Made by a program: the position numbers and the translations under genes. A stretch of DNA of 64,000 bases. Source: Chelativorans alearensis (lineage in GTDB: Bacteria > Pseudomonadota > Alphaproteobacteria > Rhizobiales > Rhizobiaceae). The notes under the pieces are model-generated. The model searched no databases. It saw only the letters and a list, made by a program, of their open reading frames with translations, and was not told where the DNA came from. Within the stretch, counting starts at the first letter, position 1, and each line of letters begins with the position of its first letter. The stretch is taken from contig NZ_WQNI01000009.1 in the NCBI RefSeq assembly GCF_010993735.1, positions 62,001-126,000 on the forward strand, given 5' to 3'. This document shows positions 39,300-43,307 of this stretch, one piece after another.

Positions 39300-40508
39300 C
39301 TACATGGCTTGCAGAGGTACACCACGAATGCGACGCCACAGCAGCGCCGCCAGCGTGATCGCCGCCATGACGGCTGAATAGGCGGCCAAGGGCCAAGCGG
39401 TGTCGCCATTCAGCACAATAACGAAGCTGGTGCCGATAACACCGACAATGAGGCTCTGGATGCAGAAATGCAGAGCGACGGCGGTGCCGGCGATGTCACC
39501 GAACTCCCGCAACGCGCCCTCGGCCGTCACCGAGATGGTGAACACAATTCCGACCGCCATCAGCCACATCGGCAGAATGAACGACCAGAAGGATGGCGGC
39601 AGCGAGAGTTGACCCAACAGCAGCGCACAGGCACCCAGGATCAGAAGCGCCATGCCACGGACAGCACTCCCGGCTATTCCCCACCGCTCCACGAAGAACT
39701 TCGCGAAACGTGTCGTGGCGATCATGACGAGAGCTACCGTCGCGAAGGCCAGGCTGAAGCCGAGCTCGGAGAATCCAGCGCCGTCGATCAAGACACGCGG
39801 TGCCGTCGAGAAGAACACGAAGAACGTGCCCATCGCTGTGCCGAAGCCCAACGTGTAGGTCCAGAAGGCAAGGCTCTTCACCACCAGGCCGAACGACGCC
39901 CTACGCGGCGTTTCATCGACCGGTCGCGTTTCATGCCACGCGGGCAGCGCGCAGACCAGCATCACCAAGGCCGGGAGGCCCAAAGCCACGAAGATGAAAC
40001 GCCATCCTAGCGAACCGGCAATAACCGCTCCGGCAATGGGTCCGAGCGCCGGCACGAAGGCCAGCATCGCGTTCATGAGGCTGTAGACGACAGCGCTTTC
40101 CGGCCTTTGTGCGTAAACATCGCGAACGGTCGCGAACAGGGTGACCAACGTTGCCGACGCGCCTACCGCCTGGACCAACCGCAGCGTCACGAATAGATAT
40201 GACGAGGACGTCGTTGCCAAGGCAAACGAGGACAACGCAAACAACACTGCGCCGCCGATCAGGACGGGACGGCGGCCAGCCCGGTCGGAGAGCGGACCGA
40301 AGGCGATCTGCCCGACGCCGAGCATGATCATGTAGAAGGTGAGGGTTAGCTGGACCACTGCCGGCGTGGTCCCCAGGATTTCCGGCATTGCTGGGACAAC
40401 CGGCAGATATATGTCCATGCCGAGCGAGGCGAGGATGTTGAAGGGTGCCAGAAGCATCAAGGCAACTGGCAGGCTGTACGTCCACAGCCGTGGATTCCGA
40501 GTAGGCAT
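39300..40508 (-). CDS. MFS drug exporter, CmlA/FloR-like (Bcr/CflA subgroup)
   Basis: A 402-residue transporter with twelve membrane segments. From memory it resembles the phenicol exporters CmlA and FloR along most of its length: LLAPFNILASLGMDIYLPVVPAMPEIL, LTLTFYMIMLGVGQIAFGPLSDRAGRRPVL, GMGTFFVFFSTAPRVL-like TAMGTFFVFFSTAPRVLI and AFATVALVMIATTRFAKFFVERWGIAG. It would export chloramphenicol-type compounds; true specificity is inference. ATG 40508 is used; a TTG six codons earlier is possible. GC content is lower than the neighbourhood. A candidate leader peptide and hairpin lie upstream. Confidence 0.88.
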   Translation of the reverse strand: MPTRNPRLWTYSLPVALMLLAPFNILASLGMDIYLPVVPAMPEILGTTPAVVQLTLTFYMIMLGVGQIAFGPLSDRAGRRPVLIGGAVLFALSSFALATTSSSYLFVTLRLVQAVGASATLVTLFATVRDVYAQRPESAVVYSLMNAMLAFVPALGPIAGAVIAGSLGWRFIFVALGLPALVMLVCALPAWHETRPVDETPRRASFGLVVKSLAFWTYTLGFGTAMGTFFVFFSTAPRVLIDGAGFSELGFSLAFATVALVMIATTRFAKFFVERWGIAGSAVRGMALLILGACALLLGQLSLPPSFWSFILPMWLMAVGIVFTISVTAEGALREFGDIAGTAVALHFCIQSLIVGVIGTSFVIVLNGDTAWPLAAYSAVMAAITLAALLWRRIRGVPLQAM

Positions 40509-40589
40509 GACGAAGCATCCGCTCAAATGAGTGACATCTGGCGGCGGTCTGCGCTGTCATGATTTGAAAGAAGTGGAACCGTGCAGACT

Positions 40590-40620
40590 GCCGCAACAAC
40601 TTGGCAAACGTTGTTGCGGC
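40590..40620 (-). promoter_or_regulatory. Leader hairpin upstream of the FloR-like gene
   Basis: GCCGCAACAAC and GTTGTTGCGGC are perfect 11-base arms with a nine-base loop. The hairpin starts directly after the stop of an eight-residue leader frame and ends 81 nt before the exporter start. No U-tract follows, so it is not an ordinary terminator. A second weaker stem (40583-40592 with 40543-40552, 9 of 10 pairs) overlaps its 3' arm. Confidence 0.65.
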
Positions 40621-40647
40621 CTAACGGTCGGATTGCTTCGGTTCCAT
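40621..40647 (-). CDS. Putative leader peptide MEPKQSDR of the FloR-like gene
   Basis: ATG at 40647 begins an eight-codon frame (MEPKQSDR) ending in TAG at 40621. TGAGG lies nine bases upstream, a proper ribosome site. The next base opens the 11-bp hairpin. This order (short leader, immediate hairpin, exporter gene) is that of translational attenuators, which are established for cmlA. The peptide itself does not match a leader I know, so the role is inference. Confidence 0.5.
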   Translation of the reverse strand: MEPKQSDR

Positions 40648-40876
40648 GGGATCGAGCCTCAGGGATGTGGTCGATAAGCGGTGGCTATCCCTTACCAATC
40701 GTGATTTGACCTGGCAACCGCCAGCTCCGGTCGTGGCGATACTAGGCACCAACACCGCTAATTGCTCGACACCGCTGCCGGTTTGGCGGCAGAACGCGCA
40801 CTGAAGACGATGCGCTCTACCGGAGGGCCAGGGGCGCGGGTATTATCAGTGCGCTAAACGTCACGAGGAGGGAAAC

Positions 40877-41170
40877 TTGGACCTGCAAGCCTTTAGAGAA
40901 TCCATTGCGAAGCCGCAGCCGCCCGCCGGTTTGAGCCATGCTCTGCAGGCGCTGTGGTGGGATGCGAAGGGTGATTGGCACAAGGCGCACGAGCGCGCGC
41001 AGGAGCGCGACGACAGGGCGGGCATGCTTGTGCACGCCTACCTCCATCGCAAGGAAGGCGATCAATCAAACGCGGAATATTGGTATCGCCGCTGCGGCGC
41101 GACGCCGTCGACATTGGCACTTGATGATGAATGGGAAGAGTTGGCGCGGGCACTTTTGGGGCAAAGCTAG
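40877..41170 (+). CDS. Conserved small hypothetical protein
   Basis: A 97-residue soluble protein. The pattern LQALWWDAKGDWHKAHERAQ ... MLVHAYLHRKEGDQSNAEYWYRRCG is shared by a widespread family of small uncharacterised proteins. It has tetratricopeptide-like helix pairs. Start is TTG 40877, five bases after a strong GAGGAGGG; no ATG is near. Function unknown. Confidence 0.8.
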   Translation: MDLQAFRESIAKPQPPAGLSHALQALWWDAKGDWHKAHERAQERDDRAGMLVHAYLHRKEGDQSNAEYWYRRCGATPSTLALDDEWEELARALLGQS

Positions 41171-41260: not shown

Positions 41261-42193
41261 TCAATGCTGTTCAGCCGCTGCCGCGATGTCCTCCAGGAGC
41301 ATATCGACAAACAGCTTGCAAGGCGGCGAAAGCGATCGTCCCTTCTTCGTTACCAGCGCCATCGTACGTTTGACTTCCGGTTCCACCAGCGGCCGCGTCA
41401 CCAATCCGTTGCCGGCTCGAAGCCGGGCAAGCGCGGCCGGCAGTATGGTTACGCCAAGCCCGCTGGCTGCCATCCAGGCGGCAGTGTCGAGAAAGCCGAC
41501 CTCGTGCACAATCCTGGGCTCGAAGCCGGCCTTCATCACCGTCGCATCGAGCAACTGCCTGACGCCATAGCCATTGCGGAAGGCGATCAGCGGCACACCC
41601 TTGAGATCGGCCCATCTTACCTGGTCCTCGGTTGCGAATGGATGATCCGCCGCGCAGACCAGCAGCATGCGGTCCTCCAGGATCGGTCGCGAATCGAACT
41701 CCGTCCCGGCCGGCGCCGGCACGCCGATCCCCAGTTCGACGCGGTCGGACGAGATGAGCGGCAGGAACTGGTTGGGCGCGCAGTCGTCCAGCACCAGCTC
41801 GATATTGGTGTAGCGCCGGCTGAACCGGCGCGCGGTTTTCGGCAGTATGGCAACCGCCGTACCAGGCGTTGCCGCCAGCCGCACGCGGCCACGGCTGCCT
41901 TCCGACAGGTCGCGGAAATTGCTGCCCAGCGTGGCGACATCCTCAAGGATGCGCTCAGCGATGCCGAACGCTTCCTCTGCGGCCGAGGTCGGCACCAACG
42001 ACCGCGTGGTGCGGTCGAAGAGGCGCGTGTTCAGCGTTTCCTCCACCTGGCGGATGAGCACGCTGACGGCCGACTGGGTGACGCCCAGCTCCTCCGCGGC
42101 GGAAGCGAGCTTTCCATGCCTGTAGACGGCGGCGAAGGCGCGCAACTGTTTGAGCGTGAGCTGGTTTTCTATTTTCACTTTAGATAACTTCAT
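41261..42193 (-). CDS. LysR family transcriptional regulator
   Basis: A 310-residue regulator. HTH: LKQLRAFAAVYRHGKLASAAEELGVTQSAVSVLIRQVEETLNTRLFDRTTR (residues ~14-64), then a periplasmic-binding-like effector domain. It is transcribed divergently from the TAXI-TRAP transporter and decarboxylase genes, so it is likely their regulator, responding to the transported acid. The 118-nt shared gap is AT-rich (TGAATTTTTCGATTTTATTTAG). Confidence 0.9.
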   Translation of the reverse strand: MKLSKVKIENQLTLKQLRAFAAVYRHGKLASAAEELGVTQSAVSVLIRQVEETLNTRLFDRTTRSLVPTSAAEEAFGIAERILEDVATLGSNFRDLSEGSRGRVRLAATPGTAVAILPKTARRFSRRYTNIELVLDDCAPNQFLPLISSDRVELGIGVPAPAGTEFDSRPILEDRMLLVCAADHPFATEDQVRWADLKGVPLIAFRNGYGVRQLLDATVMKAGFEPRIVHEVGFLDTAAWMAASGLGVTILPAALARLRAGNGLVTRPLVEPEVKRTMALVTKKGRSLSPPCKLFVDMLLEDIAAAAEQH

Positions 42194-42311: not shown

Positions 42312-43307
42312 ATGAACTGGCGTCGCTATGCCGCGATTGCCCTGGCCGGAGCCATGGGCCTTCTCGCAAATTCGGCCATATCCGCCGATCGTTATACGCT
42401 TGGCACCAACCCGCAGGGCACGATCTATTACACGATCGGCGGCGGCATCGCCGCCGCGCTGCAGGACAAGCTCGGCAAGCAGATCACCGTACAGCCCTAT
42501 ACCGGCTCGTCCGTCTACCTGCCACTGATCGCCGCCGGCGAGGTGACAATGGGGCTCAATTCGAGCCTCGATCTCGGCGGCGCCCGCGCCGGGGATTTCG
42601 GAGAGCCGATGACCGATCTGCGCGTGCTGGCGCGCATCTGGCCGCTGCGTGTCGCGCTCGTCACCCGCAACGATCTCGGCATCACCAGGGTGTCCGAACT
42701 GGAGGGCAAGCGCGTCGTCACCGACCTCAGCGCGCTGAAGGCCATGAGCGCGCTCTCAAAGACCATAGTCGAACTGTCCGGGTTGAGCGTTGACGACGTC
42801 GAGCAGGTTTCGGTTGCCGGTCTCGGACCGGGCATGGAGCAGCTTACCGAGAACAATCTCGACGCCACGCTGATCGCGGTTGGCATTCCTCTCACCCAGC
42901 AAGCGCACGCCTCGATTCCCGGCGGCATCCGCTACCTCGACATCGACGGCGAAAACGCCACGACCGAGAAGGCGGACGAGATGTACCCTGGCCTCTACCT
43001 CACCGAGGTCGAGCCGAATCCGCGCATGCCCGAGGTAACGGAACCGGTGACGGTGACGGCCTTTGACGTCTATCTCACCGTGAACGCCGACCTGCCCGAC
43101 GAAGACGCGACGGCCATTCTCGAGGCGTTCCACGAAATCCTGCCGCAGCTCAAGCAGGACTATCCGCCGCTTGGCGGCGCGGCGCAGGAAAGGCTTTCCG
43201 CGCCGTCGAACTCGGTGCCGTATCACCCGGCCGCGGTCGAGTTCTACAAGGCAAAGGGCATGTGGAGCGAGCAGAACGAAAACCGCGATTCCGCGATGCG
43301 GAACTAG
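42312..43307 (+). CDS. TAXI family TRAP transporter substrate-binding protein
   Basis: A 331-residue periplasmic receptor with a signal peptide (AAIALAGAMGLLANSAISA). DRYTLGTNPQGTIYYTIGGGIAAAL and VQPYTGSSVYLPLIAAGEVTMGLNSSLDL are typical of TAXI proteins, which bind small carboxylic acids. It is the first gene of a three-gene unit; GGGAGGATTGTC precedes ATG 42312. Substrate is unknown, but the decarboxylase gene in the unit points to an aromatic acid. Confidence 0.92.
   Translation: MNWRRYAAIALAGAMGLLANSAISADRYTLGTNPQGTIYYTIGGGIAAALQDKLGKQITVQPYTGSSVYLPLIAAGEVTMGLNSSLDLGGARAGDFGEPMTDLRVLARIWPLRVALVTRNDLGITRVSELEGKRVVTDLSALKAMSALSKTIVELSGLSVDDVEQVSVAGLGPGMEQLTENNLDATLIAVGIPLTQQAHASIPGGIRYLDIDGENATTEKADEMYPGLYLTEVEPNPRMPEVTEPVTVTAFDVYLTVNADLPDEDATAILEAFHEILPQLKQDYPPLGGAAQERLSAPSNSVPYHPAAVEFYKAKGMWSEQNENRDSAMRN

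Follow-up and report, generated by a model that had tools for sequence, protein, structure and literature searches.

A leader ORF, an abutting perfect hairpin, and two further helices upstream of a chromosomal CmlA/FloR-family exporter gene of Chelativorans alearensis (genome size of 5.7 Mb) very probably constitute a translational attenuator of the chloramphenicol type, like those of cmlA and floR. The parts and their conservation, a coding constraint on the leader, covariation of the helices, and predicted refolding were all found, and we infer ribosome stalling, chloramphenicol as the drug, induction, and the site of transcription start in C. alearensis. On balance, we also lean toward a broader reading, in which an old chromosomal regulator would have been retained beside CmlA/FloR-family exporters in Pseudomonadota and Myxococcota alike, and the switches of cmlA and floR on clinical plasmids would be two samples of it that are mobile; the leaders would form a natural mutational scan of the chloramphenicol stalling context, with one strict rule (Ala, Ser, or Thr before the P-site residue); a three-helix relay (1:2, 2:3, and 3:4) would convey the signal to the ribosome-binding site (RBS), about 80 nt away; and the occurrence of Ser and Thr would point to a phenicol as the inducer for which the system evolved, and not to a drug that strictly depends on Ala.

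Leader, hairpin, and exporter gene

The following features were assigned in the window (the whole stretch of DNA analyzed; 64,000 nucleotides).

39300..40508, minus strand: CmlA/FloR-family phenicol exporter (MFS); start codon ATG at 40508-40506; matches NCBIfam NF033134 and MFS_1
40519..40529, minus strand: segment 4, CATTTGAGCGG, the 3' strand of helix 3:4 with the exporter SD-like GAGCGG
40535..40544, minus strand: 5' strand of the putative RBS-masking helix 3:4 (CCGC, then AGATG); 93.2% paired
40541..40552, minus strand: segment 3, GCAGACCGCCGC; forms helix 2:3 with 40594-40583 (11/12)
40583..40600, minus strand: segment 2, the 3' hairpin arm GTTGTTGCGGC (40600-40590) plus the extension AGUCUGC (40589-40583) that pairs with segment 3
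40610..40620, minus strand: segment 1, the 5' arm of hairpin 1:2, GCCGCAACAAC; 1:2 paired in 865/868 cells of 79 leaders
40621..40647, minus strand: leader ORF, MEPKQSDR-stop; present in 121/122 loci (a count biased upward); apparent coding constraint
40657..40660, minus strand: SD-like GAGG of the leader ORF, from the sequence
40689..40717, minus strand: weak promoter-like TTGCCA-17-TAAGGG upstream of the leader; equal spacing in L003, L004, and L005 by eye

The downstream gene, initially annotated as phenicol-exporter-like, did score well above the cut-off of the cmlA_floR equivalog model (NCBIfam NF033134): 615.7 against 450 bits. Its scores were below the cut-offs for FloR proper (NF000219; 526.8 against 700 bits) and CmlA proper (NF000509; 364.6 against 875 bits). 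The ORF divergent from it (40877-41170, plus strand, 97 codons) gave no Pfam/NCBIfam match at E 0.001. Transcription would start upstream of the leader; a sigma-70 scan returned no site there, the promoter-like sequence at 40689-40717 included. An Rfam covariance-model search of 40300-40900 yielded one match of 11.7 bits against a gathering score of 72, and none above gathering.

The leader codons (ATG GAA CCG AAG CAA TCC GAC CGT TAG) run from the ATG at 40647 to the end of the TAG at 40621, and the hairpin (40620-40590), perfect over 11 bp with a 9-nt loop, begins at the base immediately after the stop. The ribosome site, the MEPKQSDR frame, and the abutting hairpin were all on the minus strand where the initial annotation had placed them, and the sequence bore out its distance of 81 nt from the end of the hairpin to the exporter ATG (40508). 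When the 368 nt separating the exporter start from the next ORF (40509-40876) were subjected to dinucleotide shuffling, a perfect stem of at least 11 bp appeared in only 2 of 2000 shuffles; this, together with the leader plus hairpin in nearly all of the loci sampled, ruled out a chance hairpin. The RNA fold of 40660-40480 had a z value of -2.54, and 7 of 200 shuffles folded as well. Folding energy by itself was only moderate evidence for the element, and conservation, as read from the homologous sequences, is far stronger evidence. An intrinsic terminator was rejected, since the hairpin lacks a U-run after it and a terminator scan gave none there. Reinitiation from the leader stop was also rejected, the distance of 112 nt appearing to be too long.

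Homologous exporter loci (122: 115 from genomes and 7 from plasmids) consisted of 8 from the genus (including the window, L002), 27 further ones from the family (of 77 matches), 80 kept of 336, and 7 plasmid records of 2982. A leader ORF with its stop directly before the GCCGC of the hairpin was found in 121/122 loci, the window's own included, but this value is biased upward, since the loci are close relatives by selection; the value of 70/77 in the family-wide draw (see below) is fairer. Several genomes occur twice, and the search pattern itself demanded a stop followed by GCCGC. In the exception (L133), the leader stop is lost (TAC where others have a stop) and the frame runs into the hairpin. 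Without the GCCGC requirement, the longest perfect stem started right after the leader stop in 78/115 genomic loci; 23 had no perfect stem of at least 7 bp, and in 14 the longest perfect stem was elsewhere or one base off. Distinct leader-to-start sequences numbered 95/121. L133 was left out of all leader counts, a redundancy filter reduced the 121 leaders to 81, and L067 and L112 (long inserts) were left out of the RNA counts with 79 rows; L165 contains an exporter fragment only.

Helices between the hairpin and the RBS

The consensus of 79 aligned leaders comprised four strands: GCCGCAACAAC (strand 1), GUUGUUGCGGC plus about UCUGC (strand 2), GCAGA.CGCCGCC.AAUG (strand 3), and CAUUU.GAGCGG, which holds the exporter SD-like site (strand 4). 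Segment 2 is common to helices 1:2 and 2:3, and segment 3 to helices 2:3 and 3:4. In the window, helix 2:3 joins 40594-40583 with 40552-40541 by 11/12 pairs with one A.C mismatch. The second stem of the initial annotation (40583-40592 with 40543-40552) was, therefore, real but slightly longer than proposed (12 positions), whereas the third helix (40544-40535 with 40529-40519), which would mask the RBS, had been missed.

On the tree of the 79 leaders, 99.7, 95.1, and 93.2% of cells were paired in helices 1:2, 2:3, and 3:4, with 6, 7, and 12 double compensatory changes, respectively. When the registers were slid, these values were 27-81, 28-61, and 33-45% paired, with 1-2, 0-6, and 0-3 double changes, respectively. 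Since one slide (-3) of helix 2:3 gave 6 double changes against 7 in the true register, the count alone was not decisive for this helix, and a cognate-fit permutation test was performed, in which segment 2 of each leader was paired with its own segment 3 in the part outside the fixed GCGG. The cognate mean was -8.95 kcal/mol against -7.86 kcal/mol on permutation, and none of 5000 permutations was as good; when each segment-2 type was represented by a single row (32 rows), the values were -8.69 and -6.81 kcal/mol, again with 0/5000 as good. In a separate alignment of 43 rows (A1), helix 1:2 was 99.6% paired with a covariation score of 0.143, each of which was reached by 0/500 shuffles; three of its pairs were changed on both sides, a number reached by 49/500. 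Judging from this covariation and cognate fit, a conserved relay of helices 1:2, 2:3, and 3:4 links the hairpin to the exporter RBS, and the earlier suggestion that the second stem could relay a signal toward the start region gained support from helices 2:3 and 3:4. Pairing of the last leader codons with segment 2 (at least 3 bp; 47/79) and of the leader start with the bases that follow segment 2 (at least 4 bp; 27/79) was also predicted and was not relied on.

The inverted repeat is nearly a perfect palindrome with strongly conserved outer arms, as might be expected of a DNA operator for a repressor in place of an RNA hairpin. This explanation is highly improbable: the arms are between 3 and 12 bases apart, depending on the leader (81 compared); G-U pairs, which break a DNA palindrome and keep an RNA stem, are common (15/79 and 13/79 at two positions); one genus (g96) has swapped the inner arm on both sides; and the repeat abuts the leader stop codon in all but one of the 122 loci. 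Furthermore, no regulator gene adjoins it, the LysR gene (41261-42193) lying past another ORF and being divergent from ORFs that start at 42312.

For the RNA helices, the switching predicted by folding was as follows. In the free RNA, helix 1:2 formed in 79/79 leaders, helix 2:3 (>5 bp) in 10, and helix 3:4 (>3 bp) in 78. When the footprint of a ribosome stalled at Asp was masked, helix 2:3 (>5 bp) increased from 10 to 51/79 leaders, against 0/79 in the control with segment 2 shuffled (mean of 10). Mean 3:4 pairing decreased from 12.3 to 8.0 bp under masking, against 13.2 bp with segment 2 shuffled. RBS accessibility increased in 63/79 leaders (mean unpaired fraction from 0.32 to 0.43), with no rise in 16/79. 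For the window, computed 2:3 pairing changed from 0.3 to 8.9 bp and 3:4 pairing from 12.4 to 6.8 bp. Helix 3:4 kept >3 bp in 70/79 masked folds, and helix 2:3 was shorter than 5 bp in 28/79, including cmlA (L163), in which the variable parts of segments 2 and 3 pair well (-8.9 kcal/mol). These models predict partial opening of the RBS on refolding. Exporter starts were placed by alignment and are approximate; those of L162 and L163 were a few bases off in the refolding and accessibility computations.

Ribosome stalling in the leader peptides of erm(C) and cat-86 refolds the mRNA and frees the RBS, and the erm(C) attenuator operates by a 1:2/2:3/3:4 logic; these systems differ from the cmlA/floR type in genes, peptides, and RNA sequences. 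For the window, the corresponding mechanism would be as follows. Without the drug, ribosomes would translate MEPKQSDR and leave, hairpin 1:2 and helix 3:4 would persist, and the latter would hide the exporter RBS. At a low drug level, a ribosome would stall when Asp7 occupies the P site and Ser6 is the penultimate residue; the stop codon would lie under its leading edge, as would about seven of the eleven segment 1 bases. Segment 2 would then be freed to pair with segment 3, which would be taken from segment 4 (the RBS strand), and the exporter would be translated. The attribution to cmlA-like leader-peptide attenuation in the initial annotation was strengthened by the conserved codons, the compensatory changes, and a layout common to plasmid floR and cmlA.

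Control may, as a tentative alternative, be mixed, the leader also governing transcription or mRNA life (by Rho polarity or stabilization by the stalled ribosome) and translation being only part. The mRNA of floR increases with florfenicol or chloramphenicol and that of the Myxococcus homologue also increases (log2 5.6); induction measured at the mRNA level is not predicted by purely translational control and speaks against it. Translational repression coupled to Rho termination is also reported for topAI, in the available portion of PMC12121999. On the other hand, the conserved helix 3:4 sits on the RBS, a signature of translational control, and the missing U-run excludes an intrinsic terminator.

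Leader peptides and the stalling context

The initial annotation had regarded the differing peptide and the distance to the start codon as peculiarities of this copy; both turned out to be normal for the family. There were 62 different peptides among 81 non-redundant leaders, and the leader stop was 92-133 nt from the exporter start in 119/121 leaders (165-166 nt in two; starts placed by alignment). With the nearest start taken, 52 of the 81 leaders have 9 residues, 28 have 8, and 1 has 6. Counting back from the stop, position -1 is Arg or Lys in 68/81 (all six Arg codons occur), position -2 is Asp in 73/81, and position -5 is Lys in 65/81. Position -3 is Ala in 42, Ser in 38, and Thr in 1; among all 121 leaders, the numbers are 64, 56, and 1, respectively, with no exception to Ala/Ser/Thr. 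Thr is also at -3 in the more distant leaders L178-L181, read by eye.

In the last five leader codons, 50/75 single-base changes were synonymous against 18.9 expected (protein tree, 79 loci); the pattern of substitutions indicates that the leader is translated as a peptide under coding constraint. The comparison among homologues proposed in the initial annotation, of the eight codons and of compensatory changes in both stems, was thus performed with a positive outcome. Codon -3 is mostly GCA or TCA (69/81): GCA in 42/42 Ala cases and TCA in 27/38 Ser cases, while the window has TCC (40632-40630). At this codon, 5/14 single-base changes were synonymous (expected fraction of 0.37), and the rest swap within Ala/Ser/Thr; a constraint on the codon or on base pairing may add to that on the amino acid.

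In cmlA, Asp8 occupies the P site and Lys9 the A site of the stalled ribosome, according to the accessible part of PMC11190716. When this register is applied here, residue -3 is penultimate in the nascent chain. The window leader carries Ser6-Asp7, namely, an Ala/Ser/Thr-class penultimate residue and Asp in the predicted P site; by this analogy, the P site of the stalled ribosome is predicted to hold the Asp7 codon (40629-40627) and the A site Arg8, Ser6 being penultimate. Ala, Ser, and Thr are the residues after which chloramphenicol stalls ribosomes (the available portion of PMC12121999, citing Marks 2016 and Syroegin 2022). Since position -3 is always one of these residues, the sole strict rule of the family leaders is the drug's own context rule. 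Natural leaders may serve as an independent record of where chloramphenicol stalls ribosomes.

Distribution and relationship to cmlA and floR

The kind of system is already known, having been proposed for cmlA and described for floR, and the window contains a well-preserved chromosomal copy. In the model of Stokes and Hall (1991) for cmlA (Tn1696, class 1 integrons), as given in the accessible part of PMC8876359, a 9-amino-acid leader is combined with two alternate stem-loop pairs, one of which masks the SD. Similar to the window, the leader of cmlA (ending ADK-stop; MSTSKNADK in the plasmid loci L163 and L164) is directly followed by a hairpin, a second stem-loop masks the SD, and the exporter is homologous. 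The window differs in its 8-codon peptide (MEPKQSDR, in which Ser takes the place of Ala ahead of Asp), its chromosomal location, an exporter only about 48% identical, and, by eye, a weaker SD-like site (GAGCGG against AAGGAG).

The attenuator of floR, which is inducible, has a 9-amino-acid leader and a perfect 11-bp inverted repeat, with the hairpin away from the RBS (Li et al., PMC5890775; floR-T1/T2, PMC8256890; both as far as their accessible text goes). In L161, the floR leader MGNSKSADK is followed by the same GCCGCAACAAC arm as in the window; the proteins are 64% identical, and the window exporter is below the FloR cut-off. The anatomy of plasmid floR (L161), floR2 (L160), and cmlA (L163 and L164) was the same as that of the window. 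The available text of PMC8256890 calls the part of the stem-loop in induction not clear because of its distance from the RBS, and the floR descriptions, in the portions available, contain one stem-loop and leave the RBS link open; segments 3 and 4 are proposed here as this link. Conserved helices 2:3 and 3:4 thus offer a concrete, testable answer to how a floR hairpin far from the RBS could act, and the window copy is chiefly valuable for opening up a large comparative set that bears on this question. A comparative survey of chromosomal CmlA/FloR leaders was not found in the literature searched (mostly without subscription papers); nor, in the same literature, were the breadth of the chromosomal family, a covariation-supported link between the hairpin and RBS in floR-like genes, or the strict penultimate Ala/Ser/Thr rule.

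MXAN_2566 of Myxococcus xanthus, similar to the window exporter in being chromosomal and of the CmlA/FloR family, was the most upregulated gene in a chloramphenicol culture at 36 h (log2 5.60; 1.42 at 8 h), and its knock-out was sensitive (PMC6617876, accessible text). The word "leader" is absent from the main text of that paper. Five Myxococcus loci (L139, L141, L143, L148, and L155) contain the leader and hairpin, and are likened to MXAN_2566 by genus only.

The leader with an abutting hairpin was found in Rhizobiales, relatives of Halomonas, Myxococcus, Acinetobacter, and plasmid cmlA and floR. In a family-wide draw, 77 exporter matches (E 1e-100 or better) occurred in 76/394 family genomes, and a covariance model of the leader plus hairpin placed the element 66-149 nt upstream of 70/77 exporters. 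The 394 genomes gave 72 strong RNA-model matches (E 2.4e-10 or better), of which 70 preceded an exporter, one a broken exporter, and one an exporter fragment, and none preceded another kind of gene; the reading of gene context covered these strong matches only, many weaker ones being the same hairpins on the other strand. In the C. alearensis genome, only this locus matched the model well (other matches, E 0.18 or worse). This distribution points to the chromosomal exporters of environmental bacteria as the home of the regulator, which would reach plasmids together with the gene; the direction of such transfer is a surmise.

In a phylum draw, 30/398 genomes matched the RNA model at E 0.001 or better. 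Among 16 loci read, 7 lead to an exporter (L170, L172, L175, and L178-L181; L172 and L175 by eye), and 9 (L182-L188, L191, and L193) look like chance hairpins. L166, L171, L173, L174, L176, and L177 are exporter loci by coordinates; L189, L190, L192, and L194-L198 were left out of the reading.

Decayed copies exist: L042 is solitary, and L227 and L228 have broken or truncated exporters. It is nevertheless very unlikely that the attenuator is a decayed relic in C. alearensis, because its parts are intact: start, stop, 11-bp perfect stem, 11/12 pairs of helix 2:3, penultimate Ser, and an open exporter. In L042:1501-1632 (G012:C12), no exporter follows the decayed leader and hairpin. The leftover attenuators L228 (G122:C9, 11781-11848) and L227 (G282:C7, 44361-44429) precede exporter remnants, a short fragment in one case and a frame-broken gene in the other; the fragment was seen by eye, and tblastn gave no exporter there.

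The 7/77 exporters without the standard hairpin all belong to one genus (g96). In six of these loci that were read, leaders are kept, ending KSATR (L229) or ESATR (L230-L234). In L230-L234, each arm of the hairpin has a different inner sequence (GCCGTAAATTT / AAATTTACGGC), exchanged wholesale in a compensatory manner, and the hairpin of L229 is imperfect. The leader stop of L229-L234 is inside the 5' hairpin arm or beyond, and no longer before the hairpin, so passing ribosomes should disturb it even without the drug.

The exporters of three loci of genus g230 (L179, L180, and L181) are more distant (about 56% identical). Their leaders have 11 codons, end in PQTVR-stop, and are abutted by a hairpin; by eye, Thr is at -3 and Val replaces Asp. 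L175 (G478:C1:1942255-1942319) appears by eye to be a natural mosaic of a cmlA-type leader (MSTSKNADK) and a floR2-type hairpin and exporter start, with the junction within the conserved AGACAAGTAAGCCGC block.
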